Origin: a virus
IMG/VR virus record: IMGVR_UViG_3300035698_022552
Coordinates: 1-22,610 of that record
DNA: 22,610 bases
Direction: 5' to 3' (one strand)
Below, in pieces: positions 3,933 to 20,677 of the stretch (position 1 is the stretch's first letter; every line of letters begins with the position of its first letter). A program made the translations under genes and the position numbers. Below the pieces are notes generated by a model. The model worked only from the letters and a program-made list of their open reading frames with translations, was not told where the DNA came from and searched no databases.

Positions 3933-4687
3933 CAGACATTCTAATTGAGAAACCAGATGAATCAGAGCATATAACCATGTTCATCTATGGGGATTCAGGC
4001 GTAGGGAAAACCCTCCTGATGTCTACTGCAAACACATGCGACGAAGCCTCCCCTGCGTTGTTCATTGATTTCGAGCGAGGGACAAAAACATTAGCTGGAA
4101 CAGACATTGATATCACTCGGCCAAGAAATTGGAAGGATATTCAGGACATCTATGAGTTCTTGCGTTTCGAAAATACCAAATACAAATCGGTTATCCTCGA
4201 CTCTGCGACAGAGATCCAAAAGAAATTTAGCATGGAGTCGATCCTGGGGGAATTAGATGATGATGCTCTAGATCTTACAGCAGCCGTGGCTCCGGCGAGG
4301 AAGGACTGGATGCGTACAGGCAACCAGATGAGAAAACTCATCAGGGCATTCAGGGACTTAGCTCACATAAAAGAGAAGGACAGGAGGATGCATGTGTTCA
4401 TCTCTGCTCTGGAGAGGATGAATGAGAAACGCGGGATCGCCTGCCCTCAGCTCTCAGGTACACTTGGGGAAGAATGCGGGGCTATGGTCGATTTCTTGAC
4501 CAGGCTGTCCCGCGTCAATACCGAAGATGGGACGCAAGGAAGGAGGTATTTGCTGACTGACGATTACATCAATGAGGATGGCATCAAGTTCTTAGGCAAA
4601 AATCGTGGATCTAGGCTCCCAACAGGGATGTGGGATCCAACTATTTCTAAAATCATGGCAGCACTGAAAGGAGGAGTAGATGAATAA
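3929..4687 (+). CDS. Sak4-like RecA-fold ATPase (phage recombination)
   Basis: A 252-residue P-loop protein of the phage Sak4/AAA_24 type, a minimal RecA-like core linked to single-strand annealing and recombination. Walker A is GDSGVGKT (residues 21-28). LFIDFERG follows as the second strand and SVILDSAT as Walker B. The C-terminal half (LGKNRGSRLPTG) resembles the substrate loops of this family. It lacks the N- and C-terminal domains of cellular RecA. It sits between a resection-type nuclease and, two genes on, an SSB-like protein, the usual partners of Sak4. Its stop overlaps the start of the FAD oxidoreductase by eight bases. Confidence 0.8.
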   Translation: MTDILIEKPDESEHITMFIYGDSGVGKTLLMSTANTCDEASPALFIDFERGTKTLAGTDIDITRPRNWKDIQDIYEFLRFENTKYKSVILDSATEIQKKFSMESILGELDDDALDLTAAVAPARKDWMRTGNQMRKLIRAFRDLAHIKEKDRRMHVFISALERMNEKRGIACPQLSGTLGEECGAMVDFLTRLSRVNTEDGTQGRRYLLTDDYINEDGIKFLGKNRGSRLPTGMWDPTISKIMAALKGGVDE

Positions 4688-6020
4688 TGTCCTTATAATT
4701 GGAGCGGGTCCAGCAGGCCTATTTGCTGCTGACGCGCTGTCTGATGCAGGGATCAATTGCACTATCTTAGAGATGGGCAAGGAGCTAGTGAAGAGGAATT
4801 GCCCTCAGTCGCCGGATTGCGATTGCAAACAATGCGATATACTTGAGGGAATCGGAGGAGCAGGAGGATTTTCCGATGGTAAAAACACATACTCACTGTC
4901 CAGAGGGACTCAGACAGAGGAGATCTTTCAACCGTCAGAGGCTAACCTCCTTGGTCACATTGATCAGATCATGTTACAGCACGGAAACACTGGGTTGGAG
5001 TTCAACGAATTACCAACAACACCCCCGCTGTTCAAGTGCCTTGAACTTGATTTCCAGAGTTACTGGTTGAGGCACGTCGGGACTGATGGTATACAGCAGT
5101 TCATTGGTAGGTATGCCGAGCATCTCAGATCCAAGGGAGTGCATATCCGTAGCGAATGCGAAGTCAAAGATATCCGCAGAGGCTTTCCTGAGAAGGGCAG
5201 CACAGAGGGATTTTCTGCAAGTATAGCCGGGGAGGATGTTTTCTTCAGGGCTGAGCAGATCATCCTGGCGACAGGCCTTCAGGGGTCACCCTGGCTAGAG
5301 GGGCAGGCTGAGTCCTTAGGCATTCCCCTATTTGGTGGGCCAGCAGGGTTTGGCATTCGCGTGGAGGCTCCTAAGGCGGTGCTCGATCCTATGTTTAATA
5401 TCTTCTATGATTTCAAACTCTCATTAGACAACTGCCGAAGCTTTTGCTGCAATCGAGGTGGATACGTCATCAATGAGAATCACAAGACATTGGGGGTTAT
5501 CAATGTCAACGGTCACTCCTATCTCGATAAGGGGAACAAGAGTGAGTTCTCGAATTTCGCGCTCATATCCAAGACTGACTGGGAAGGTGATTCCCAAGCG
5601 AAGGTCAGAGAGATAGCGAAGGAGATAAATGAATCCTCTGACGGGTCAACTGTTGTTCAGAGGATGACGGATTTTTTAGAAGGTAACCCTTCTGAATCAG
5701 CAGAGGAACATACAAACCCACAGGCGAGATCAGGAATTGATATCGGGAGATTCTTACCCAGTAGCCTGTTTAATCGGTTTAAGAACTTTATAGTGGAATT
5801 AGCGTATATCGCTCCGATGATTATCCATCCATCAGTTTCAGTGTACGCTCCTGAAATTAAGTATTATGGAAAGAAATTCCCTGTAGATTTCAAAACGTGG
5901 GAAGTTGAGCCAGGGCTTTACGTTGTCGGTAATGCCTCCGGTTATTTGGACAGCTTCGTGTCAGCTGCTCTAACCGGACTAATCGCAGCAAGGCACATAA
6001 CTGAGAAGAAAGGAAAGTAA
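4680..6020 (+). CDS. COG2509-like FAD-dependent oxidoreductase
   Basis: A 446-residue flavoprotein. The N-terminus has the Rossmann dinucleotide motif GAGPAG (residues 8-13) followed by TILEMGK, ending in the acid that binds the ribose of FAD. A cysteine cluster at 41, 47, 49 and 52 leads into GIGGAGGFSDGK, a signature I associate with the uncharacterised FAD-dependent dehydrogenases of COG2509. The C-terminal LYVVGNASGYLDSFVSAALTG closes the FAD site. Length is normal and no truncation is seen. The substrate is unknown. A flavoenzyme in the middle of a recombination operon, coupled by overlap to the Sak4-like gene, is unusual and may point to a base- or nucleotide-modification role, but nothing in the sequence proves that. 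Confidence 0.8.
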   Translation: MNNVLIIGAGPAGLFAADALSDAGINCTILEMGKELVKRNCPQSPDCDCKQCDILEGIGGAGGFSDGKNTYSLSRGTQTEEIFQPSEANLLGHIDQIMLQHGNTGLEFNELPTTPPLFKCLELDFQSYWLRHVGTDGIQQFIGRYAEHLRSKGVHIRSECEVKDIRRGFPEKGSTEGFSASIAGEDVFFRAEQIILATGLQGSPWLEGQAESLGIPLFGGPAGFGIRVEAPKAVLDPMFNIFYDFKLSLDNCRSFCCNRGGYVINENHKTLGVINVNGHSYLDKGNKSEFSNFALISKTDWEGDSQAKVREIAKEINESSDGSTVVQRMTDFLEGNPSESAEEHTNPQARSGIDIGRFLPSSLFNRFKNFIVELAYIAPMIIHPSVSVYAPEIKYYGKKFPVDFKTWEVEPGLYVVGNASGYLDSFVSAALTGLIAARHITEKKGK

Positions 6021-9350: not shown

Positions 9351-9539
9351 TTGGAACAGATCATGTATACAGTAAGTGAAGTCGGGGAGGCACTCAAATT
9401 CAGTAAGTTCACAATATACCGACTGATCAAAAGCGGAGATTTAAAGGCAATTCAGCCAGGAGGAAGGCAGTACAGAATCCTCAAGCAGGACTTAGACAAT
9501 TTTATGAAAGGAGATACAAATGAAGATAACGGTAACTAA
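9351..9539 (+). CDS. Excisionase/MerR-like HTH DNA-binding protein
   Basis: A 62-residue single-domain DNA-binding protein. The pattern YTVSEVGEALKFSKFTIYRL followed by GDLKAIQPGGRQYRI and a final DLDNFM is the HTH_17/excisionase fold: helix-turn-helix, then a short wing. The start is taken as TTG 9351 because GGAGG (9341-9345) is five bases upstream; the in-frame ATG at 9363 would leave 17 bases. It overlaps queD by 20 bases and so opens the 7-deazaguanine cluster, where it may act as a local regulator. No integrase is in the window, so an excision role is not supported. Confidence 0.78.
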   Translation: MEQIMYTVSEVGEALKFSKFTIYRLIKSGDLKAIQPGGRQYRILKQDLDNFMKGDTNEDNGN

Positions 9540-9876
9540 AATCTTTGAATTCGAGGCTGCGCATTTCTTGACTGATTATAACGGGGCCTGTAGCAATACT
9601 CATGGGCATAGTTATAAGTTAGAGGTGACCGTCGGGGGTCCGCTGGCGGACGATATGGTTATGGATTTCAAGGACCTGAAGGCCATCGTCAAGAGGAGGG
9701 TCATCGATGAACTCGATCACAAGATGCTGAATGATATCCTCCCTTTCAAGACAACTGCTGAGAACATGGTCAATTGGATAGCTGGAGTTATCTGGGAGGA
9801 TCTGCCGGAGAAGGCACAACTGAAGAGGATACGCCTCTGGGAGACCTCTAACTCATATGCGGAGGCGAAGCTATGA
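9520..9876 (+). CDS. queD: 6-carboxytetrahydropterin synthase (QueD)
   Basis: A 118-residue T-fold enzyme converting dihydroneopterin triphosphate to 6-carboxy-tetrahydropterin, second step to 7-deazaguanines. All key residues are visible: zinc ligands His15 (AAHFL), His28 and His30 (THGHSY), nucleophile Cys24, the Asp66-His67 pair in ELDHKMLN and Glu108 in RLWETSNSYAE that anchors the pterin. Length equals bacterial QueD. GGAG lies seven bases before ATG 9520. Its stop overlaps the queE start (ATGA). Distinct from the divergent QueD-like domain in the fusion gene at 11941, which lacks the cysteine. Confidence 0.93.
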   Translation: MKITVTKIFEFEAAHFLTDYNGACSNTHGHSYKLEVTVGGPLADDMVMDFKDLKAIVKRRVIDELDHKMLNDILPFKTTAENMVNWIAGVIWEDLPEKAQLKRIRLWETSNSYAEAKL

Positions 9877-10511
9877 GCAAGACTTTCCCAATCAATGAGA
9901 TCTTTACGTCAGTCCAGGGGGAAGGATTATACTCTGGTTGCAGGACCCAATTCATCCGGTTCGCAGGGTGTGATCTCAGATGTGCGTGGTGCGACACTAA
10001 GTATGCCTGGGAGACGGGGCATGCATTCCAAGTGACAGAGGACAATATTCTCGATGAGCTCGGTGAGTACCAGGCACCGATCATTACCTTGACAGGTGGG
10101 AACCCTCTGCTCTACGACCTTGGTAATCTGGTTGAGCGACTCCTGCTCCAGTTCCATGCTGTCCACGTTGAGACGCAGGCCACAATCTGGAAAGATTGGA
10201 TAAATGACGTATCGTTTATCTCTATCTCACCTAAGAAGGACAATTTCAATTTGAGTGTCTTATCCAAGATGGTGAGACCTAGCAGCAGTCAGATTAAGGT
10301 CGTTGTGTTTGATGAGTCTGATTACGTGTTTGCGAAAATGGTGCATAAACGATTCCCGCATGTACCATTCATTTTCCAGGTTGGATTCCCTTCGAAAGAC
10401 GATGGTCGTTGGCTGGCTGATAGAGTATCAGCAGATACGGAGCTTGGGAAGAATGCAAGAGTGATGCCACAAACGCACCGTTTATTCTGGGGTTCGGAGA
10501 CGGGGGTGTGA
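9873..10511 (+). CDS. queE: 7-carboxy-7-deazaguanine synthase (QueE)
   Basis: A 212-residue radical SAM enzyme that contracts 6-carboxy-tetrahydropterin to 7-carboxy-7-deazaguanine (CDG). Visible: INEIFTSVQGEG (QueE signature, 8-18), the [4Fe-4S] motif Cys33-x3-Cys37-x2-Cys40 in AGCDLRCAWCDT, and the SAM-binding LTGGNPLLY. The cluster spacing is the standard CX3CX2C. The start overlaps the queD stop and the stop overlaps the HNH gene start by one base. With queD, folE and dpdA in the same operon it supplies a deazaguanine base for nucleic-acid modification. Confidence 0.94.
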   Translation: MSKTFPINEIFTSVQGEGLYSGCRTQFIRFAGCDLRCAWCDTKYAWETGHAFQVTEDNILDELGEYQAPIITLTGGNPLLYDLGNLVERLLLQFHAVHVETQATIWKDWINDVSFISISPKKDNFNLSVLSKMVRPSSSQIKVVVFDESDYVFAKMVHKRFPHVPFIFQVGFPSKDDGRWLADRVSADTELGKNARVMPQTHRLFWGSETGV

Positions 10512-11371
10512 TGAAAGTTGATGGTAGAGTTTGCACTCAATGTAATACCTGGAAAGAGAAAGCTGACATGGTCCTAGACAATCGCAGGAAGAACGGTATG
10601 GGATCCTGGTGCAGAGATTGCTCAAATAAGTGGTCTAAAGAGCATCGCTTGTCTGACATAGCAGCTGCGAGAGCTAAGGACAAACTCTTTCGTAAGAAAC
10701 AGCGGAATAAAGGACTCTGCATCCAATGCAACGAACCCAGTCTCACTGGTAAGATATACTGCTACAGGCATTCTCGCATGGGTCGCGCTTATACTGCGAA
10801 GTTGCATGGCAGACGCTCTGCCGCAGGAAATTGCATTTTTTGTGATACTCCTCATATGCCGAACAGAGTGTATTGTCAGGAGCATCTCGATCTAATCAAT
10901 GCATCTAGTTCCAAAAGAAGAGCTAGACTCTCAAAAGATGGCATTTGTCATAAATGCGGAGTAACGAAGGAAGATTTTGAAAAAGGAGTATACTGCTCGA
11001 AATGCGAGATAATAACTAATCTGAGCCGGAATCTCCGTTATGCCCTGTCATTCAAAGGTGAGTCTAAAGATGGACGTGCATGGGAGTCGTTAGTGAGTTT
11101 TACTAAGCGACAGTTACTTGATCACGTTGATCATTGGCGGAAGGCGCAAGGCCTTTCGAAAGGAGAGAAAACAGATCTGCATCACATAATTTTCCAAAGC
11201 GAACTTAATTGGGATAGAGTAGAGGATGCAAACTGGAATCGCGTCTGGAGCCTCAGCAATCTCATTCCATTGTCAATAAAAGCACATAAAGCATTGCACA
11301 GCGGGGACACAAGCCTGCTGCACCCCGCAGCTAAAACTTACATTGAAGAGAGAAGAGGAGAATCACAATGA
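10511..11371 (+). CDS. HNH endonuclease with tandem zinc knuckles (copy 1)
   Basis: A 286-residue protein, probably a homing-type nuclease lodged between queE and folE. I chose ATG 10511 (overlapping the queE stop, TGATG) over the GTG one codon earlier. Order: N-terminal zinc ribbon CTQC...CRDC; two CxxC...YCxxH knuckles (CIQC...YCYRH, CIFC...YCQEH); one CHKC...YCSKC; then a C-terminal HNH core with adjacent His224-His225 (DLHHIIF), the LSNLIPL asparagine and KAHKALH. It has a longer paralogue at 19526 with four knuckles. It interrupts an otherwise metabolic cluster, as homing endonucleases do, without disrupting either neighbour. Confidence 0.85.
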   Translation: MKVDGRVCTQCNTWKEKADMVLDNRRKNGMGSWCRDCSNKWSKEHRLSDIAAARAKDKLFRKKQRNKGLCIQCNEPSLTGKIYCYRHSRMGRAYTAKLHGRRSAAGNCIFCDTPHMPNRVYCQEHLDLINASSSKRRARLSKDGICHKCGVTKEDFEKGVYCSKCEIITNLSRNLRYALSFKGESKDGRAWESLVSFTKRQLLDHVDHWRKAQGLSKGEKTDLHHIIFQSELNWDRVEDANWNRVWSLSNLIPLSIKAHKALHSGDTSLLHPAAKTYIEERRGESQ

Positions 11372-11940
11372 TGGTCAAAGAAGAGCATATCCAGGAAATG
11401 CTAGAAGATATTGATGGCGGGAAAGGGATACTTGATCCAGAGGTTCTGGCCAATACTGCCGAGCGAGTCTCAAGGATGTATAATACTGAGCTACTCTCAG
11501 GATACGGCGTCGACCCTGCTGATTTTCTGTCTGTGACATTTGAATCAGAGTGTCAAGAGATGGTCCTGGTGAACAATATTTCTTTCAGTAGCTTATGTGA
11601 GCATCACATAGTCCCGTTCATAGGAACTATCAGTATTGGATATGTGCCTAATAAGAAAATCCTTGGAATCAGCAAATTTGTTCGGTTGGTAGACTGCATG
11701 GCGCATAGACTGCAACTGCAAGAGCGCTTAACATCTGACATTGCAGATACAATCATGGAGTATGTTGAACCATTAGGCGTTGGGGTCATTTGCGATGCCA
11801 GTCATCTGTGTACTGCAATCAGAGGGGTCAAGCGTCCTGGCTCCAGGACAGTCACATCAGCATTACGAGGCCTAATGGCGGATGACGCCAGAGCGAGGGA
11901 AGAATTCATTAGCTTGGTCAAATTAAAGGGAGGAGACTAG
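11368..11940 (+). CDS. folE: GTP cyclohydrolase I (FolE)
   Basis: A 190-residue type I GTP cyclohydrolase, which opens GTP to dihydroneopterin triphosphate, the entry point to deazaguanine synthesis. Zinc ligands Cys77, His80 (SSLCEHHIVPF) and Cys148 (ASHLCTAIRGV) align with the E. coli set. IGYVPNKKILGISKFVRLVDC is the usual core, and the RGVKRPGSRTVTSALRG segment closes the active site. Length is slightly below the E. coli enzyme (222) through a short N-terminus. GAGGAG lies seven bases before ATG 11368, which overlaps the HNH gene stop. It probably feeds QueD rather than folate synthesis, judging by neighbours. Confidence 0.94.
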   Translation: MMVKEEHIQEMLEDIDGGKGILDPEVLANTAERVSRMYNTELLSGYGVDPADFLSVTFESECQEMVLVNNISFSSLCEHHIVPFIGTISIGYVPNKKILGISKFVRLVDCMAHRLQLQERLTSDIADTIMEYVEPLGVGVICDASHLCTAIRGVKRPGSRTVTSALRGLMADDARAREEFISLVKLKGGD

Positions 11941-12888
11941 ATGAAAGAGATAACATTGAAGGTCACTAAGGAAGTAGCAGGGACACATAACTGGCCAGAG
12001 GCTCCGCCTCACAGGAGTTACCTGGCCAGCAGGCACAGGCACATGTTCATTATCTCTGTCTACGCTAAGGTAGAGAAAATGGATAGACAGATAGAATTCC
12101 ACGACCTGATGGACCAGATCGAAAATGCGATAGCTCCTCCATGGATCCGCAGGGCAGGGCTAGACCTACGGGATTTCGGGGGAAGGTCCTGTGAGATGAT
12201 AGCCGATCATATCCTTAAGGAAATCCCCGATGCCTTTCGAGTGACGGTTTCAGAAGACGGAGAGTGCGAGTCATCCGTTGAAGAAAGAGGCTATGAGCCA
12301 CTCACCTTGACAGTCTGCGGGTCTACCAAGTTTAAGAAAGAGTCCGAAGCTGCATTGCTCATGTTGGAGCAGCGTGGAATTGCCGTGTTCTCTGTCGGTG
12401 GGTATTCCCATGCCGATGACCTGAAACCGTCCTGTGACATGAAGAAGGCATACGACAGGCTGCACAAGCAGAAGATAGACATGAGCGACGGTATATATGT
12501 AGTCAACCCTGGTGGTTACCTAGGCGATAGCACTCTAAGTGAAATCTCCCATACGGTCGGGAGCGGGAAACCAGTGTATGCCTCTGAGCCGTGCCACATT
12601 GAACTCGACGACAAGCTGGTAGGTATGATGCCCATCGATCAAGCTCAACCAGTAAGGCCGGAGCTGATCAAGTTCTCTCAGAAGATGGAGGTGAAACTCC
12701 GGAAGAACGATTTTAAAGGAGGCTGGGAAGGAGTCAAACGCCAGCATATCGTCTCCTGGTTGAATGAGGAGTTCCAGGAGCTGCACAAGGCGATTGCCAC
12801 TAATGACGCAGATGGCATCAGAGAAGAGGCAGTTGACCTCGCTAACGTCGCAATGATGGTCTACGAGAGGGCTGATGCATGGAGATAA
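11941..12888 (+). CDS. QueD-like / deoxyribosyltransferase-like / DUF550 fusion
   Basis: A 315-residue protein with three parts. Residues 1-115 resemble the QueD T-fold: the zinc-type histidines (His16, His32, His34 in RHRHMF) and a FHDL strand remain, but the catalytic Cys is absent. Residues 120-217 resemble the nucleoside 2-deoxyribosyltransferase-like fold (DUF4406 type): LTVCGSTKF and DGIYVVNPGGYLGDSTLSEI with candidate nucleophile Glu201. Residues 241-315 are a MazG-superfamily DUF550 domain, with KNDFKGGW, EEFQE (276-280) and EEAVD (295-299), the metal-binding pattern of dATP/dGTP pyrophosphohydrolases. It starts one base after folE and overlaps the reductase gene by ten. The domains suggest deoxynucleotide-pool or modified-base handling; the actual reactions are inferred. 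Confidence 0.8.
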   Translation: MKEITLKVTKEVAGTHNWPEAPPHRSYLASRHRHMFIISVYAKVEKMDRQIEFHDLMDQIENAIAPPWIRRAGLDLRDFGGRSCEMIADHILKEIPDAFRVTVSEDGECESSVEERGYEPLTLTVCGSTKFKKESEAALLMLEQRGIAVFSVGGYSHADDLKPSCDMKKAYDRLHKQKIDMSDGIYVVNPGGYLGDSTLSEISHTVGSGKPVYASEPCHIELDDKLVGMMPIDQAQPVRPELIKFSQKMEVKLRKNDFKGGWEGVKRQHIVSWLNEEFQELHKAIATNDADGIREEAVDLANVAMMVYERADAWR

Positions 12889-14576
12889 TACCTTGGAATG
12901 AACAACGGGAGCGAGTGTTCCTTGACAGGTATGCCCTTAAGGATCTCGATGGCAATCTGCTGGAACACACTCCTTCCGAGATGTGGGACAGGATAGCTAA
13001 CCAGATAGGGAAAGACCCTGCTGAGGTTGAGCTGTTCCAAGAGGCTCTCGACGACTGGAAATTCGTGCCCAGCGGGAGGATACTGGCTGGGGGCAAGACT
13101 CTATATAACTGCTTCGTCATAGGACTTGAGGCAGATAGCCGAGCAGGCATTATGGCTACGATCTCTAACCTTATTGAAATTACTTCGAGGGGTGGTGGAG
13201 TTGGCCTCAACTGGTCGGTCCTCCGACCGAGAGGTGCGCATATCCGTGGAGTGAACGGAAAGAGCTCAGGTGCCGTCGCCTGGATGCGCGGAGCAGATTC
13301 CTTAGCCGACGCTATACGCCAAGGAGGATCGAGGACGGCTGCCCTAATGTTCATCCTAGACGACTGGCACCCTGATATGATCGAACTTATTAGATCTGGC
13401 AATAGATTCAGCCGAGCGAACTTCTCAATCAATGTGTCTAAGAAATTCATGACAGCAGTCGAGGAGGATGATTACTGGAACTTAGTGTTTCCGGACACGA
13501 CTCATGAAATGTACGAATTCAAATGGAACGGGGATATCCAGCAGTGGAGGAAGGATGGATACCCAGTAATAACCCACAAGACGGTCAAGGCTAAGGATCT
13601 CTGGAAGGCAATGACTGAGTCGGCTCACGCTACTGGCTCACCGGGGATGGCTTTCTTAGAGAGGTGTAATGAGTGGTCTAACACACGCTACATTGAAAGA
13701 ATAGTGTCACTGAACCCCTGTGGGGAGATGCCATTGCCTCCAAACGGTTCCTGCAACTTAGGCTCGATCAACCTCTCTGCCTTGATTAGAGAGGATGAGA
13801 CAGACATTAAGTGGGCGGAGCTAAAGTCAACTGTCGAGACTGCTGTACGATTCCTGGACAGGGTAATTGATGTTAGTGAGCCAATCAACAGGGACATCCA
13901 AGATATCCAACTTCGGACCAGGAGGATAGGCCTGGGTACAATGGGGCTGGCGGACTTGCTCATCATCCTCAAGCTGCGCTACGGATCAGATGAGGCATGC
14001 GACTTCATTAGCTACCTTTTCGAGTTCATTAGAGACACTGCATATGAGGCAAGTGCTAATTTGGCAGTTAAACTTGGGGCAGCACCAGGGTACAACTCTG
14101 GTGAATACCTTAGCGGGAAATTCATCCAGACGCTACCAGAGAGTGTCAGGGAGACGATCTATGAATCGGGCATGCGGAACCTGGCGGTCCTGACGCAGGC
14201 TCCTACTGGAACAACTTGTATACTTGCTGGTGCGTCAAGCGGGATCGAGCCTCTGTTCAGCAAGGACTTCATCAGGGAGGACGCGACGGGTACGTCTCGC
14301 ATGCAGCACCCCCTGTTCCAGCACGGGGAGGCTGATTACCTGGTGACCGCGTCTGACGTTTCTGTTGAAGAGCACATCAAAGTTCAGGCGGAGGTACAGA
14401 AGTATGTCGATTCGTCGATTTCGAAGACGATCAACATGCCTCACTCCTGTACTCCAATGAATATTTCTGACGCTTACACGATGGCGTATGCTTCGGGTTG
14501 CAAGGGCATCACTATTTATAGAGCAGGCTCACTAGATGACGTTTTGAAGCCATACTGTGAATCCTGTGAATCTTAA
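12879..14576 (+). CDS. nrdJ: Class II (B12-dependent) ribonucleotide reductase
   Basis: A 565-residue reductase making deoxyribonucleotides. The active-site NPCGE motif gives Asn279, Cys281 and Glu283; the redox pair is Cys78 (YNCFV) and Cys292 (NGSCNLGS); QAPTGTTCILAGASSGIEPLF forms the phosphate site. A C-terminal CESCES tail offers the shuttle cysteines that re-reduce the active site. No separate radical-generating subunit gene adjoins, and the sequence resembles adenosylcobalamin enzymes, so class II is favoured over class I. The N-terminal ATP-cone found in many homologues is missing, so allosteric dATP inhibition may be weak. It overlaps the DUF550 fusion gene, in keeping with joint control of dNTP pools. 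Confidence 0.88.
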   Translation: MEIIPWNEQRERVFLDRYALKDLDGNLLEHTPSEMWDRIANQIGKDPAEVELFQEALDDWKFVPSGRILAGGKTLYNCFVIGLEADSRAGIMATISNLIEITSRGGGVGLNWSVLRPRGAHIRGVNGKSSGAVAWMRGADSLADAIRQGGSRTAALMFILDDWHPDMIELIRSGNRFSRANFSINVSKKFMTAVEEDDYWNLVFPDTTHEMYEFKWNGDIQQWRKDGYPVITHKTVKAKDLWKAMTESAHATGSPGMAFLERCNEWSNTRYIERIVSLNPCGEMPLPPNGSCNLGSINLSALIREDETDIKWAELKSTVETAVRFLDRVIDVSEPINRDIQDIQLRTRRIGLGTMGLADLLIILKLRYGSDEACDFISYLFEFIRDTAYEASANLAVKLGAAPGYNSGEYLSGKFIQTLPESVRETIYESGMRNLAVLTQAPTGTTCILAGASSGIEPLFSKDFIREDATGTSRMQHPLFQHGEADYLVTASDVSVEEHIKVQAEVQKYVDSSISKTINMPHSCTPMNISDAYTMAYASGCKGITIYRAGSLDDVLKPYCESCES

Positions 14577-14587
14577 GGGAGGAGAAT

Positions 14588-15322
14588 ATGGAGATTGCTA
14601 CAATTTTACAAACGAACTACCTGAAGCACGCGGAGAAGGACGACTACCACCTGTGCCTCGCCCACTTACTCTATGACCCTGATTACAAGGCATTTTTTAA
14701 GAGAAAGTCAAGAGAGGGTCTAATCGTAATCATGGACAACGGGGTTGTAGAAACAGGCCTGCCAATGGAAATGAATGTGCTCATGGAACTGGCTGCTGAA
14801 ATCGAGGCGACGGAGTTGATCCTGCCAGACTGCCTGAATGATCCTAGAGAGACACTCCGGCTTGGGGCAGACGCCATTGGTCAATGGTACGGAGAACCTG
14901 GGTTAATCGCTGTACCTCAAGGGGAGACTTTCAAGGAGTGGCATGAGTGCTTGAAGGAAATGCTCCTATGGCCTGTAACAACTATCGGCATATCAAAATT
15001 CACTGCCAGATTCACTGGGTCCAGGCTCAGTGTCCTAATGCAATCTCCTGAACTGATCGATAGCCAGTTCGACATCCACTTACTGGGATGCCTCAGCATT
15101 GGGAATGAAATACAGGAGATTGAGGCAAATTTCCCTGGTAGAGTCCGAGGAGTGGATAGCGGGATAGCTGCCATAGCTACTCAAGAGGATACCAAGATTA
15201 GCGACATCGCAGACGGGGACCGGATCGACGTACCGCTGGACTTTTTCAGCACCGATCTGGATGAGGTATTGCTGGTAACTAATATCGCCGAGTGGAAGGC
15301 GATGTGTAAGGGGTGGATTTAA
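14588..15322 (+). CDS. dpdA: DpdA-like DNA 7-deazaguanine transglycosylase
   Basis: A 244-residue TIM-barrel protein related to tRNA-guanine transglycosylase, of the compact type found in phages with deazaguanine DNA (DpdA). Matching elements: IMDNGVVETG (Asp50), LILPDCLND (Asp81), AVPQGET (110-114), TTIGISKF, DIHLLGC and RGVDSGIAA (Asp190). Two of the Asp residues are candidates for the general acid and the nucleophile. It lacks the C-terminal zinc site of bacterial Tgt, as expected for phage DpdA. GGGAGGAG precedes the ATG. With queD, queE and folE in the same operon, insertion of a deazaguanine into phage DNA is the simplest reading; tRNA as substrate is the main alternative. Confidence 0.8.
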   Translation: MEIATILQTNYLKHAEKDDYHLCLAHLLYDPDYKAFFKRKSREGLIVIMDNGVVETGLPMEMNVLMELAAEIEATELILPDCLNDPRETLRLGADAIGQWYGEPGLIAVPQGETFKEWHECLKEMLLWPVTTIGISKFTARFTGSRLSVLMQSPELIDSQFDIHLLGCLSIGNEIQEIEANFPGRVRGVDSGIAAIATQEDTKISDIADGDRIDVPLDFFSTDLDEVLLVTNIAEWKAMCKGWI

Positions 15323-15843: not shown

Positions 15844-17034
15844 ATGGGAGAAACAGTAGCAGTAATTGATGCACTATGGGGAGATAGTGGGAAGGGTAAG
15901 ATAGTCGATTACCTGGTCAATAACCAGACGTTCGACTACACTGTGAGATTCAACGGGGGGTCCAATGCTGGGCATAGCGTCGAGACCGACGACGGAACAA
16001 GGCACAAGGTTCACATCCTCCCTGCTGCCGTATTCACACCGGGGGTAAGGTGCTGCCTAGGTGCTGGGATGGTAGTTGATCCTGTTAAGCTAATTCAGGA
16101 GATAGAAAAGGTTGACAGAGCAGTCAACCTAATGATCGATCTCAGGTGCCACGTAGTCACTCAATTTCATGTGGTCAAAGACCAGGAGAATGAAGCGACA
16201 TTAGGCAAGTCCAAGATCGGGACAACACTCACAGGAAATGGTCCTGCGTACGCTGACAAGGCATTTCGGTCAGGCATCCGAATGGGAGATCTGCTGCTGC
16301 CTGGTTACGTGCTTGAGCATGCGCTTAGGAAATCATTAGGGTATTTCGACGGCACAGACTTGCACAATGTGCTGAGCCGTTGCGGTGAGATACTTGAGAA
16401 ATACTTCACGGATGTGGCAATTGAACTTAACACTGCGATTGACCAGGGAGATTCAGTTCTCTTCGCGGGGGCTCATGGTACTCTACTTGACATAGACTAC
16501 GGTGAGTACCCTAATGTCACTTCTTCCTCTTGCACAGCCAGTGGCATTGGAACAGGGGCTGGAGTAAGTTTGAGAAAAGTCAAAGAGGTAATTGGGGTGG
16601 TCAAGGCTTACGTGACCAGGGTGGGGGCTGGCATGATGCCTTCAGAGATGAACTTCCGTGAGGCAGATATAGTTAGGGAGGCGGGTAAGGAGTTCGGGAC
16701 AACAACTGGTCGACCGAGGAGAATAGGGTGGCTAGACATCCCTCAGGTCAGTTATGCCGCGATGCTCAACGGGTTCGACTACTTGGCTATCACATTGCTA
16801 GACGTCCTGTCCGGCCTTGATGCCCTCCAGATCTGCACCAGGTATCGCAACAACGGGACTGCGGAGTATACAGTAATGAAGCCGTGGAAGGAGGACCTCC
16901 AGGCATGCAGGAGCCTGCTCGACTTACCTAAGGAGGCTAGGAGATATGTAGATTACATCGAAGAGGTCGTCGGCGTACCGGTGAAGATGATTTCCGTGGG
17001 TCCAAGGCGTAACCAAATGATAGATATGAGGTAA
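15844..17034 (+). CDS. purA/purZ: Adenylosuccinate synthetase family protein (PurA/PurZ)
   Basis: A 396-residue enzyme that joins aspartate to a purine nucleotide. Ordinary PurA acts on IMP; phage PurZ acts on dGMP to start 2-aminoadenine synthesis. Landmarks: WGDSGKGK P-loop (12-19), GGSNAGHS (His44), IGTTLTGNGPAYADK, GAHGTLLDIDYGEYP, TRVGAGMMPSEM, EFGTTTGRPRRIGWLD and VGPRRNQM. Against E. coli PurA the P-loop Glu is Ser15 while the general-base Asp (Asp14) is kept, and the guanine-binding TKLD motif reads TLLD, keeping Asp. Length lies between archaeal (about 340) and bacterial (about 430) PurA. Adjacency to a DNA polymerase gene and to a DUF550 domain favours a PurZ or PurZ0-like role; host-like PurA activity is not excluded. 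Confidence 0.88.
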   Translation: MGETVAVIDALWGDSGKGKIVDYLVNNQTFDYTVRFNGGSNAGHSVETDDGTRHKVHILPAAVFTPGVRCCLGAGMVVDPVKLIQEIEKVDRAVNLMIDLRCHVVTQFHVVKDQENEATLGKSKIGTTLTGNGPAYADKAFRSGIRMGDLLLPGYVLEHALRKSLGYFDGTDLHNVLSRCGEILEKYFTDVAIELNTAIDQGDSVLFAGAHGTLLDIDYGEYPNVTSSSCTASGIGTGAGVSLRKVKEVIGVVKAYVTRVGAGMMPSEMNFREADIVREAGKEFGTTTGRPRRIGWLDIPQVSYAAMLNGFDYLAITLLDVLSGLDALQICTRYRNNGTAEYTVMKPWKEDLQACRSLLDLPKEARRYVDYIEEVVGVPVKMISVGPRRNQMIDMR

Positions 17035-17038
17035 GTAG

Positions 17039-19516
17039 ATGGATTCAAGTTACCAAAAGAGCCAATGCTCAATCTGCAAAATGAACCTGGCTGAGAGAAT
17101 CCCGACCCAGTTTAGTGACCGTCAAACCCTGGTGGCTTTTGTCAAGCATAAGCCATCAGGGGATGACGAGGCTGCATTCTCTGGAGCGTATGGGAAGGTA
17201 CTGAGGGAGATATTAGCGAAATCTCCTATCAATTTCGAAGACATAATGTTTACTTACGCACTATCTTGTAAGGGCAGCAAACCAAAAATAGGCGAGATTC
17301 GTGCGTGCAATCTGCGATTAATGAGTGAATTGAAAAAGGGAAATCCAGCAGTTATCGTCGCCCTTGGTAAGGATGCGCTGCATGCGTTGGACAACCGCTT
17401 GGTGATGAAGAATGTCCGAGGGCGATGCATTACAATCCAGGGTTACCGAGTTGTCCCAACGGCTGACCCTGAAGCACTGCTAGCGCTGCCGGACGGGTTC
17501 AGGCAATTCAAACGTGAGGTCCTCTTCGCAGTCGACGTCGCTATGGGCCTTGAGGAGCCAGTTATTGACCCTCCTTTGGTCAACTATCGATTCGCAGACA
17601 CCCAGGAGAAGTTCGATAAGCTAATGGTTTATTTGGAAAAGGTCAAGCCTGAGTACACAGCAGTAGACATTGAGACCACCGGCCTGGACCCTTCCAAGGA
17701 AGACATCATTAGTGTCTCGCTAACTACCCGGCGTGAGAGCGCCTTTATCGTAGACTGGGTAAATCTCATAGACAACAACACAGACAATTTTGAAAGGCTC
17801 AACCGGTTCCTGGGAAATACCGAGGTCATCTACCATAATGGCATGTTTGATGACCTGTTCCTCCAGGCTAAGGGGATGACCCCAAACTTCGTTCATGACA
17901 CCATGCTATCATCATATACATTATGCGAGGATCAGGGCTCACATGGCTTGAAGCCACTGTCCTCTGACTACTACAATGCTCCTGATTACGATGTGCAGAT
18001 GAAGAATTTTGTGAGAGGTCGCAGGCTATTCCAACCTGATATTGGCGTGCCTCCATTCACGTTAACCGACTGGAAAGACCCCCTGGTGAGAAAGAAGATA
18101 GCCGAGTATAATGGAGCAGATAGCGATTACACGTTCAGGTTACATGAAGACCTTATTGAAGAGATGAAGATGGATAAGGTAGACCACCTACCAAGAAACT
18201 TGCTCATCCCTGCCGCTAAACATTTTATCAGACTTAAGCAAGACGGGATGCTCGTCGACCAGAAGTATCATGATGCATTAGGCAATAGATGGTCAGACGA
18301 GATTAAGGAATTAGAGATCAAAATGAGGTCCTTTTCAGGCGCTGAATATATCAACTTGGGGAGTACTCAGCAGATAGCCAAGTATCTCTTCGACACTCTC
18401 AAGCTCAAGCCTATGAAAGGGCGTGTCGGAGAGACTATAGACCAAGACTCCTTGCTCGAAGAGATAGGAATGGTTTTGGACCCAGAAGCCCAAGGATATT
18501 TCAAAGAGGCATCCTCGGCGGTCTTTAGCAACATGACTCCTAGGAGCACAGGCATATATATGCTGTACCTCCTGGCTGATCAACATCCATTCCCGCGTCT
18601 CCTGGTAAATCACCGGCTGACGATGAAGAAGTACGGGACATACTATGAGGGCATCAAGAAACTGATAGATGACAAGGGAAGGATCAGGCCGGACTTTAAA
18701 TTGCACGGTACGAGGACAGGCAGACTATCTTCTACTCGACCTAACGTGCATGGCATCCCTAAGCTAAAAGAGATTCGTCGGTGCTTCAAAGCTGACGACG
18801 GGTACACGATAGTCGGGGCTGATTATTCGCAAGCTGAAATTAGAATGCTGGCGCATCTAGCTGATGATGATAGACTTATTCAGGCACTGGACGCACAGGA
18901 CATTCATTATGAGATAGGCAAAGAGTTGTTCGGAATGACTGACGCAGAAATGGATGCCCTCTCAGTTGACGAACGGAAGACCAAGAGACGTGCCAGTAAG
19001 ACCATAGCCTTCGGTCTCATATATGGCAGGGGAGTCAAGAGCCTCGCGACGCAAATGGGAGTAGCTATAGAAGAAGCTGAGGAATTCATCGAAAGGTTCT
19101 TCTTAATGATGCCACGAGTAAGGTCCTGGATAAAACGTCAGGAGGCAACAGTCATGCGCGATCGTGAGGTCGTTTCTATATATGGTCGTAAACGACGCTT
19201 CCCATTTACGCCGACCAAAAACTCAATATCAAAGATTAAGCGCCAAGCTGTGAATATGCCTATACAGAGCAGCGTCAGTGACATGACTCTGCTGGCTAAT
19301 ATAGATATCTTGCGGATTCTTAAAGAGCGTGAGATACCCGCCCTAGCAGGTCCTCACATACATGACGGGTTTTTGATAACTGTAAAAAACGAGTATTTAG
19401 ATGAAGCGGTGGATGTGGTAAAAAGGAGGATGAGCGATGTCGGGTTTGATACAAGAGTTAATTTTGCGAGTGAAACTGAGGTAGGTCCTACGTGGGGTGA
19501 CCTGAAGGTGATATAG
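17039..19516 (+). CDS. Family A DNA polymerase with UDG-like N-domain and 3'-5' exonuclease
   Basis: An 825-residue replicative polymerase. Residues 1-165 resemble a family 4 uracil-DNA glycosylase: four Fe-S-type cysteines (10, 13, 77, 90) and PAVIVALGKDAL survive, but the GEAPG and HPS catalytic motifs are replaced (KHKPSG, TADPEALL), so it is probably inactive. A DEDDy exonuclease follows: VDIETTGLD (Asp210, Glu212), HNGMFDD and EYNGADSDY. The polymerase part has motif A DYSQAEIR (Asp595), motif B RRASKTIAFGLIYG (Lys654, Phe658, Tyr662) and motif C HIHDGF (Asp776). Motif C reads HDG rather than the usual HDE. It lies four bases after the PurA/PurZ gene, an arrangement like the PurZ-linked DpoZ polymerases; DpoZ membership is inferred. 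Confidence 0.9.
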   Translation: MDSSYQKSQCSICKMNLAERIPTQFSDRQTLVAFVKHKPSGDDEAAFSGAYGKVLREILAKSPINFEDIMFTYALSCKGSKPKIGEIRACNLRLMSELKKGNPAVIVALGKDALHALDNRLVMKNVRGRCITIQGYRVVPTADPEALLALPDGFRQFKREVLFAVDVAMGLEEPVIDPPLVNYRFADTQEKFDKLMVYLEKVKPEYTAVDIETTGLDPSKEDIISVSLTTRRESAFIVDWVNLIDNNTDNFERLNRFLGNTEVIYHNGMFDDLFLQAKGMTPNFVHDTMLSSYTLCEDQGSHGLKPLSSDYYNAPDYDVQMKNFVRGRRLFQPDIGVPPFTLTDWKDPLVRKKIAEYNGADSDYTFRLHEDLIEEMKMDKVDHLPRNLLIPAAKHFIRLKQDGMLVDQKYHDALGNRWSDEIKELEIKMRSFSGAEYINLGSTQQIAKYLFDTLKLKPMKGRVGETIDQDSLLEEIGMVLDPEAQGYFKEASSAVFSNMTPRSTGIYMLYLLADQHPFPRLLVNHRLTMKKYGTYYEGIKKLIDDKGRIRPDFKLHGTRTGRLSSTRPNVHGIPKLKEIRRCFKADDGYTIVGADYSQAEIRMLAHLADDDRLIQALDAQDIHYEIGKELFGMTDAEMDALSVDERKTKRRASKTIAFGLIYGRGVKSLATQMGVAIEEAEEFIERFFLMMPRVRSWIKRQEATVMRDREVVSIYGRKRRFPFTPTKNSISKIKRQAVNMPIQSSVSDMTLLANIDILRILKEREIPALAGPHIHDGFLITVKNEYLDEAVDVVKRRMSDVGFDTRVNFASETEVGPTWGDLKVI

Positions 19517-19525
19517 GGGAGCCTA

Positions 19526-20677
19526 ATGGAAGAAGATGCTAGAATCTGTTCCAAGTGCGGCATTTGGAAACCTTACACTGAAATGGTCAAAAACAAGAAT
19601 AATAAAGACGGTATGCATCATTGGTGCAAAAAATGTAGTGCGATAAAAAGTAAACTCAGACGCGATTTGCACAAAAAGAAAGGCCTTTGCAAGGAATGCA
19701 GCGAGTCTCACCTGCCAGAAAGTATCTATTGCCAAAAGCATCTCGATAAGTGTAATGCTGAGAGTGCGGTCAGAAGAAAGCGGCGTAAAGAGGTCGGCCT
19801 CTGCACATATTGTGACAAACCCCACTTGCCAGAAAGTATCTATTGCCAAAAGCATCTTGATAAGCACAATGCACACAATACAGCCAGAAGGAAGCGGCAT
19901 AGAGAAAATGGTCTATGTATGGACTGCGACAGACCCCACTTGCCAGGAGGTACTTATTGCCAAAAGCATCTTGATGAGCACAATGTGTCCGCTACAGCCT
20001 GGAACAAGCGGCACAAAGAGGCTGGACTTTGCCAGGACTGCAAGAAATCTCACTTACCTAACAGTGCCTATTGCCAGGAGCATCTTGATAGGAGTCATGC
20101 CCGTAGTGCAGTCAGGAGAAAGCGGCTCACTGAGAATTGCATCTGTCATCTATGCGGTAATTCGACAGGAGGAGGAGCCTACTGCGCAAAATGCAGCATC
20201 GCAGGTAATCTCAGCAAAGGGATCCTTGACGATCTATCGTCAAACAATCAGTCAAAGGGAGGTCGGCATTGGGAGACCTTGGTCGCCTTTACTAAAGCAG
20301 ACTTACTGACACACGTAGCCTATTGGCGCAAGGTGCAGGGTATCCCAGGTCAAGATAAAGTAGACATTCATCATATAATTTTCAAAAGTGAGCTACGCTG
20401 GGAAATCGTAGGCGATAGAAATTGGAATATCGTCTGGGACCTAAGCAACCTCATACCAATATCCAAGAAGTCCCACCAGGCGTTACACGGAGGAGACTTG
20501 AGCCAGCTGCATCCGAAGGTCAGGGAGTACATAGAAGAAAAAAGAGAAAACCTCCAAGGGCCAGTTAAGGCCCTTAGAGGCTTAAAGTTTAATTCCGATC
20601 AGGAGGCGTTAGGACCTTTCGCAACGACCTCCTGGCTTCCTCCCGGTCAGGCAATCGCTCCTCCTCCTGCCTCATAG
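19526..20677 (+). CDS. HNH endonuclease with expanded zinc-knuckle repeats (copy 2)
   Basis: A 383-residue paralogue of the HNH protein at 10511. Order: N-terminal zinc ribbon CSKC...CKKC; four 38-residue knuckles of the form GLCxxC...HLPxSxYCQKHLD; a final CHLC...YCAKC; then the HNH core with DIHHIIF (His282, His283), LSNLIPI and KSHQALH. The HNH cores are clearly similar, so the copies share an origin within this virus lineage. Past the point where copy 1 ends (EYIEEKRE), about 45 extra residues of low complexity follow and are encoded across a terminator-like hairpin and antisense to the convergent gene, so stop-codon loss is likely. GGGGAG precedes the ATG. It probably acts as a homing nuclease next to the polymerase gene. 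Confidence 0.82.
   Translation: MEEDARICSKCGIWKPYTEMVKNKNNKDGMHHWCKKCSAIKSKLRRDLHKKKGLCKECSESHLPESIYCQKHLDKCNAESAVRRKRRKEVGLCTYCDKPHLPESIYCQKHLDKHNAHNTARRKRHRENGLCMDCDRPHLPGGTYCQKHLDEHNVSATAWNKRHKEAGLCQDCKKSHLPNSAYCQEHLDRSHARSAVRRKRLTENCICHLCGNSTGGGAYCAKCSIAGNLSKGILDDLSSNNQSKGGRHWETLVAFTKADLLTHVAYWRKVQGIPGQDKVDIHHIIFKSELRWEIVGDRNWNIVWDLSNLIPISKKSHQALHGGDLSQLHPKVREYIEEKRENLQGPVKALRGLKFNSDQEALGPFATTSWLPPGQAIAPPPAS
19682..20137 (+). repeat. Four 114-bp tandem repeats inside the HNH gene
   Basis: In-frame units start at 19682, 19796, 19910 and 20024, each encoding 38 residues with C-x2-C, HLP and YCQKHLD or YCQEHLD. Nucleotide identity is highest between the first two units, for example the shared AGTATCTATTGCCAAAAGCA, implying recent duplication. 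A degenerate fifth knuckle follows from 20138. Confidence 0.85.
20551..20580 (-). terminator. Terminator hairpin between convergent operons
   Basis: CCTC-C-AAGGGCC-AGTTAA-GGCCCTT-A-GAGG: eleven pairs with one mismatch and a 6-base loop. On the minus strand it is followed by TTTTCTCTTTTTT (complement of 20538-20550), a strong intrinsic terminator for the leftward operon, whose last stop is at 20589. On the plus strand the downstream tract (CTTAAAGTTT) is weaker, so it may be only partly bidirectional. Confidence 0.7.

Follow-up and report, generated by a model that had tools for sequence, protein, structure and literature searches.

A candidate multifunctional enzyme of QueC-less 7-deazaguanine DNA modification in a lineage of diverged viral contigs

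What could a single viral polypeptide accomplish that joins a QueD-like domain to two domains typical of deoxynucleotide metabolism? Such a protein is encoded in the 22,610-nucleotide stretch of viral DNA analyzed here (IMG/VR record IMGVR_UViG_3300035698_022552; hereinafter, the window), amid genes for the synthesis of 7-carboxy-7-deazaguanine (CDG) (Table 1). Base exchange in finished DNA accounts for the 7-deazaguanine DNA modification known so far; room has explicitly been left for undetected 2'-deoxyribosyltransferases and a modified dGTP (Hutinet et al., 2019; PMC6884629), and the fusion protein offers a conserved, concrete candidate for a nucleotide-level route of this kind. We propose that it is a multifunctional enzyme of QueC-less 7-deazaguanine DNA modification in which CDG processing is joined to a deoxynucleotide-level module, a core claim to which we assign an even chance; the base-exchange step, taken by itself, is a more doubtful matter and is considered separately below.

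Table 1. Features of the fusion gene, its product and the conserved gene block (positions in the window)
Feature	Position	Strand	Evidence
QueD (6-carboxytetrahydropterin synthase)	9520..9876	+	TIGR03367 over cut-off; catalytic Cys and D-H pair
QueE (7-carboxy-7-deazaguanine synthase)	9873..10511	+	TIGR03365 E 5.3e-48, below its cut-off; phrog_2076
FolE (GTP cyclohydrolase I)	11368..11940	+	PF01227 208 bits; TIGR00063 over cut-off
Shine-Dalgarno sequence GGGAGGAG of fusion gene	11928..11935	+	read directly; strong; 5 nt before ATG
Three-domain fusion gene	11941..12888	+	ORF, ATG start, 315 aa, complete
Domain 1, QueD-like T-fold, residues 2-116	11944..12288	+	phrog_17812 E 2.4e-20; hhalign QueD E 3.5e-6; Foldseek 4ntn E 5.3e-6; VIA Z 11.2
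Domain 2, DNPH1 / nucleoside 2-deoxyribosyltransferase fold, residues 119-237	12295..12651	+	VIA 1t1j Z 11.9, DNPH1 Z 11.0, NDT Z 11.0
Domain 3, MazG-like pyrophosphohydrolase, residues 236-314	12646..12882	+	PF03819 22.7 bits; phrog_18269 E 5e-7; VIA AF_0060 (2p06) Z 9.9
Ribonucleotide reductase (RNR) large subunit	12879..14576	+	PF02867 394 bits
Minimal TGT/DpdA-like transglycosylase, 244 aa, invariant D50, D190	14588..15322	+	structure model and conserved columns
PurA (adenylosuccinate synthetase)	15844..17034	+	TIGR00184 398 bits, over cut-off; PurZ model 112 of 300
Family A DNA polymerase (PolA), last gene of conserved block	17039..19516	+	PF00476 265 bits; synteny in relatives

Domain architecture of the fusion protein

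The preliminary description of this DNA had read the gene as a fusion of three domains, and the structure prediction that it proposed as a check bears out this reading. The AlphaFold model, computed from an alignment of 71 viral sequences (A4, with a small flaw, namely two misplaced MazG-only fragments), has a mean pLDDT of 90.5, and comparison of the model using VIA-align assigns folds to all three domains, with structural Z of about 10-12. The predicted architecture of a QueD-like T-fold, a DNPH1/deoxyribosyltransferase (DRT) fold and a MazG-like fold is thus confirmed at the level of the model. In the whole chain, Pfam models detect only MazG (PF03819, 20 bits) and PRA-PH, and the PHROG families that match the first part (phrog_17812) and the last part (phrog_18269 and phrog_5164) carry no function. 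The FolE stop codon abuts the fusion gene, and the start of the RNR gene overlaps its 3' end.

The relationship of the first domain to QueD is apparent from the profile-profile comparison (hhalign) of the T-fold family with viral QueD (E 3.5e-6) and from the VIA-align match of residues 2-116 to QueD/PTPS (Z about 11); in a sequence search of the PDB with the T-fold profile, the best match had an E of only 0.075. The characteristic residues are H16, H32, H34, S83-C84-E85 and E105-D106, and among 45 aligned sequences, no variation is seen at H16, H32, H34, R49, E52, S83, E85, E105 or D106, and hardly any at C84. Domain 1 shares with QueD/6-pyruvoyltetrahydropterin synthase (PF01242) the T-fold, the three zinc histidines and two pocket glutamates, which align between the two families. 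In contrast to QueD, the catalytic cysteine (C-x3-HGH) and the Asp-His pair are absent from domain 1 in the alignments of these 45 sequences, in which an almost invariant Ser-Cys-Glu is gained; the earlier claim that the zinc histidines are kept and the QueD cysteine is absent therefore holds. A separate QueD, with the catalytic C24 and D66-H67 (alignment A6), is encoded in the same block.

The middle domain was identified by fold and motif only: it matched no model of Pfam, PHROG or NCBIfam, and a sequence search of the PDB with the DRT profile matched nothing. It shares a fold with DNPH1 (RCL), NDT and 1t1j, and its invariant residues across 36 sequences are C-G-S (the C126-G127-S128 loop), H157, D172, H175, K178, Y193, S197 and E201, the last of which is the candidate nucleophile, equivalent to DNPH1 Glu104 according to a motif alignment made by hand. 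In DNPH1, the main-chain amides of residues 29-31 bind the 5'-phosphate, and Glu104 attacks with the assistance of Asp80 and Tyr24 (PMC10483697). The motif alignment places the glutamate at the nucleophile position and the C-G-S phosphate loop in common between the two proteins, whereas the position of the general acid Asp80 is occupied in the middle domain by the invariant H175 and that of Tyr24 by T124. NDT, too, has its catalytic Asp where this histidine lies, and the two substitutions speak against the proposal made above. In DNPH1, the C26-G27-S28 motif directly precedes the phosphate-binding residues 29-31. The motifs suggest that the substrate of the middle domain may be a nucleotide 5'-monophosphate.

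Taken alone, the last domain scores 22.7 bits against Pfam MazG, which is at the threshold, and no dATP/dGTP-hydrolase or DUF550 model is among its listed matches with an E of 1 or less; in this detail, the result departs from the earlier label of a MazG-type, DUF550 dATP/dGTP hydrolase. The E-x2-E and E-x2-D metal site is intact (E277, E280, E296, D299), is kept in the related contigs L097, L098, L099 and L100, and aligns, in a motif alignment made by hand, with the metal-binding acids of MazZ of cyanophage S-2L. In the latter enzyme, residues I56 and D60 read guanine and are held to confer the guanine specificity of MazZ-1 (PMC8342488). Judging by the motif spacing, these residues are not kept in the fusion protein, which has N302 and M306 instead, so that a guanine specificity of the MazZ type is unsupported. 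The preliminary description had made its reading of this domain depend on functional acidic residues; those of the metal site are indeed kept in the sequence, but the two guanine-reading residues of MazZ-1 are not, and therefore the substrate, dATP or dGTP, is not nameable from the sequence. The activity class suggested by the fold and the metal site is that of MazG, and the substrate is most plausibly dGTP, which is a guess.

Conservation of the fusion and of its gene block

When viral contigs were searched with the fusion protein as a single query, no relative was detected; domain alignments were needed, and it was the middle domain, used as the query, that retrieved the true relatives. In unchanged order, the three parts recur in five other distinct viral contigs, with about 42% identity over the protein, and together with the window these make up a lineage of six (the window, L097, L098, L099, L100 and L101/L102, the latter pair representing nearly the same virus); a second viral scan yielded no further fusion contigs. 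The full fusion is present in four contigs (the window, L097, L098 and L100). In L099, the T-fold is encoded by one gene and DRT-MazG by the next, and in L101/L102, a T-DRT gene is followed by a separate MazG gene. The fusion is no chance joining, given that five further contigs carry the same parts, and a functional link between the three parts is indicated by the persistence of the trio across this divergence and by the gene splits that leave the parts adjacent.

The order FAD oxidoreductase, SSB-like, prim-pol, helicase, QueD, QueE, FolE, fusion, RNR, TGT-like, PurA and PolA is common to the lineage over about 15 kb ("SSB-like", for a small protein, and "helicase" are names read from the ORFs), with identity mostly of 37-56% and of 29% for QueE of L101; L101 covers only the later part of the block, and all lineage contigs are fragments. 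The FAD-dependent oxidoreductase (4680-6020 in the window) contains a cysteine cluster and was retained wherever a lineage contig extends to that end of the block. The family A polymerase includes a domain of the uracil-DNA-glycosylase superfamily (residues 29-159). Two related Cys-rich, HNH-like ORFs are located at 10508-11371 and 19526-20677; the former, between QueE and FolE, looks like an inserted mobile gene because it has no counterpart in the block of the relatives.

The product of 14588-15322 is predicted to be a TGT barrel with two invariant aspartates that are the catalytic candidates. It matched no Pfam model, those of DpdA and TGT included, and a sequence search of the PDB with its profile gave chance matches only; its structure model (AF2 pLDDT 94.5) matched arcTGT (1iq8, E 6.5e-6) and DpdA (7ui4, E 1.4e-5) in Foldseek, with a VIA Z of 16.9. 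All six contigs of the lineage have the gene, and both candidate aspartates are found in those that were aligned. This small family is also represented in Cellulophaga phage phiST, beside the phiST T-fold.

The last domain of the fusion protein had been expected to yield dGMP for a PurZ-type enzyme. The product of the neighboring gene at 15844-17034, however, scores only 112 bits against the PurZ model (cut-off 300; the control, VP2 PurZ, scores 396) and keeps two residues diagnostic of PurA (PMC8342488), the aspartate of WGD, which is Ser in S-2L PurZ, and the arginine that contacts the ribose 2'-OH (TTGRPRR). The identity with PurZ is accordingly rejected, the protein being PurA by both model score and residues, and the feed claim falls with it. 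The motif reads WGDSGKG, a single unusual change from the usual WGDEGKG seen in L097 and L101.

The T-fold family and the absence of QueC

Relatives of the T-fold domain are encoded in more than 540 viral stretches, and in the best 80 of these loci, FolE was recognized in at least 51, QueE in at least 49, QueD in at least 45 and a TGT-type enzyme in at least 52, all of which are lower bounds given that many loci are contig ends (one TGT class was named from motifs only). Of 38 T-fold records from outside the lineage, only one includes a DRT domain; DRT-MazG was added to the T-fold within this lineage. A genome scan yielded only two T-fold loci, from a Streptomyces and from a Clostridia MAG, with no DRT or MazG matches there. 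In the former (Streptomyces sp. LS1784, L191 7605-8327), the T-fold is encoded beside QueD, QueE and FolE in a bacterial contig, perhaps within a prophage.

None of the 38 T-fold records from outside the lineage, which include nine complete phage records, encodes a QueC that exceeds the Pfam cut-off, and neither does any of the six lineage records, which are fragments so that QueC could lie outside them; matches to QueF in the lineage come from the FolE genes and fall below the cut-off. Conversely, all ten control phages with QueE and without the T-fold encode QueC (T-fold in none of the ten), so that QueC is found in 0/9 T-fold phages compared to 10/10 control phages (Fisher p 1.1e-5); these samples were hand-picked, are related to some degree, and the controls were chosen partly after their annotations had been seen. 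Mycobacterium phage Bipper, which according to the literature lacks QueC, was absent from the first control set and was added afterwards, which brings the count of QueC carriers to 10 of 11 among QueE phages that have no T-fold. On testing, Bipper (L220) has neither QueC nor the T-fold and encodes FolE, QueD, QueE and TGT; thus, QueC can be lost without the T-fold being present. Between the TGT and QueD genes, Bipper encodes a 141-amino-acid protein of unknown family (L220 2047-2472).

Because carriers of the T-fold are without QueC while 10 of the 11 QueE phages without the T-fold have it, CDG is the most likely substrate of this domain, and the simplest reading of these gene contents is that the T-fold might replace QueC as the taker of CDG, the QueE product. 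Cui et al. reportedly proposed in 2023 that DpdL is a CDG decarboxylase. The T-fold occurs with FolE, QueD and QueE in place of QueC, as expected of DpdL, and DpdL would be expected to act on CDG without QueC, a pathway position that fits the genomic evidence; from this context, the T-fold is probably the DpdL decarboxylase. We know of no fusion of DpdL to DRT or MazG domains. Phages 9g, CAjan and Rosebush, which employ the DpdA pathway, have FolE, QueD, QueE and a TGT/DpdA-type enzyme in common with the window but carry QueC, whereas here none was found and the T-fold takes its place (PMC6884629). The link of the fusion protein to deazaguanine metabolism that was drawn from the sequence at the outset is supported by this pattern, and the mutual exclusion of the T-fold and QueC provides a testable function for a family of unknown function in PHROGs.

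A possible nucleotide-level route and its rivals

The chemical steps that we infer for the fusion protein would proceed as follows. FolE, QueD and QueE, encoded just upstream, would make CDG, which the T-fold would take in the old QueD pocket, with zinc held by H16/H32/H34 and the heterocycle by E85/E105; in the absence of the QueD cysteine, the domain would remove or alter the carboxyl group, the most likely product being 7-deazaguanine. The MazG domain would convert a dNTP (dGTP being the most plausible one) to the corresponding dNMP, from which the middle domain could form a deoxyribosyl-5-phosphate intermediate on E201. Passing this intermediate to the 7-deazaguanine base would yield 7-deaza-dGMP and guanine. 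Host kinases would complete the 7-deaza triphosphate (no dedicated dNMP kinase was recognized in the window), and the TGT/DpdA-like enzyme, encoded downstream, might act on the replicated DNA, either inserting the base or completing it. The notion that one polypeptide converts CDG and dGTP to 7-deaza-dGMP is tentative, and we consider it rather unlikely to be correct in full; if true, it would represent a pre-replicative route to 7-deazaguanine DNA, as opposed to the known exchange in finished DNA. The idea that a modified deoxynucleotide is built before polymerisation, raised in the preliminary description, is retained at this strength, and the TGT/DpdA-like gene in the block keeps base exchange in DNA viable.

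Indeed, the nucleotide route is not needed given that the TGT/DpdA-like enzyme is encoded in all six lineage contigs, and this is the main argument against it. Insertion could take place only after replication, through this enzyme, with the T-fold making 7-deazaguanine and DRT-MazG serving as a pool module in which MazG would convert dNTPs to dNMPs and the middle domain would hydrolyze or recycle dNMPs or salvage the guanine released by base exchange. We regard this scenario as quite possible, without expecting it to be the right one. Phosphoribosyltransferases are the usual enzymes of purine salvage, and their genes in other T-fold clusters (L021, L078 and BUCT-ZZ01) point to guanine salvage; furthermore, one of the best fold matches of the middle domain is the dNMP enzyme DNPH1, which is a hydrolase (PMC10483697). 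What post-replicative insertion leaves unexplained, however, is why four contigs should encode pool enzymes in one chain with a base-tailoring domain, and why these parts remain adjacent in the others. We lean toward the nucleotide-level role, that is, conversion of dGTP to dGMP followed by base exchange, because it alone explains the fusion; it is narrowly favored, the two readings being about equally probable.

The three parts could also have independent functions, with a lineage-specific nucleotide module fused by chance to a deazaguanine T-fold and no channeled chemistry. Stand-alone relatives of the middle domain are found in many viruses without recognized deazaguanine genes nearby, and therefore this domain need not act on deazaguanine; its rarity in other T-fold records points in the same direction. 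Nevertheless, such independence is improbable, considering that across six diverged contigs all three parts lie next to one another, and do so in L099 and L101/L102 as well, in which they are divided between two genes. Far less credible still is the production of dGMP by MazG for a PurZ-type enzyme, with adenine replaced by 2-aminoadenine. As in the Z-cluster of S-2L, where MazZ supplies the PurZ substrate (PMC8342488), a MazG-type enzyme is encoded in a base-modification cluster beside a homolog of adenylosuccinate synthetase, and the latter gene is conserved in the block; unlike in S-2L, the synthetase is PurA by model score and residues, and the guanine-binding residues of MazZ-1 are not kept.

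The nucleotide-level reading nonetheless has a likeness in other phages. In T4, a normal dNTP is hydrolyzed and a modified one is built. The reading favored here resembles the same logic in S-2L (PMC8342488), and in these terms the locus suggests that some viruses may have a modified guanine ready in nucleotide form by the time their DNA is copied. In keeping with this reading, genes for MazG and for a P-loop kinase adjoin the T-fold in phiST, phi13:1 and L037, and in L078 the kinase is fused to the T-fold. In Cellulophaga phages phiST and phi13:1, QueD, QueE, FolE, MazG, the T-fold, the kinase and the TGT-like protein are encoded side by side, and the T-fold and the small TGT-like family are common to these phages and the window; unlike in the window, their genes are separate, the DRT domain is absent and the P-loop kinase is present instead.

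Several further features of T-fold loci are worth recording. The P-loop kinase (AAA_18-like, phrog_19196) directly follows the T-fold in the L021, L022, L023, L028, L037, L065, phiST and MA9V-3 loci, and its fusion to the T-fold (L078 6983-7951) suggests a nucleotide-phosphorylation step in T-fold pathways. Phosphoribosyltransferase genes of the PF00156 family are located at L021 4978-5502, L078 5910-6443 and L010 1456-1917 and are possibly involved in the salvage of guanine released by base exchange; the L021 cluster also holds a dCTP-deaminase-like gene. In L101 (1012-1857), L041 (6082-6990) and L087 (6044-6955), FolE has an N-terminal extension of about 110-125 amino acids that reads like a phosphoribosyltransferase fragment and matched no Pfam model (the extension alone was tried for L101 only). 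Finally, among the loci L017-L096, a glycosyltransferase-like family of about 380 amino acids (e.g., L017 3371-4510) adjoins the T-fold in 44 of the 80 loci, which hints at sugar-decorated DNA.
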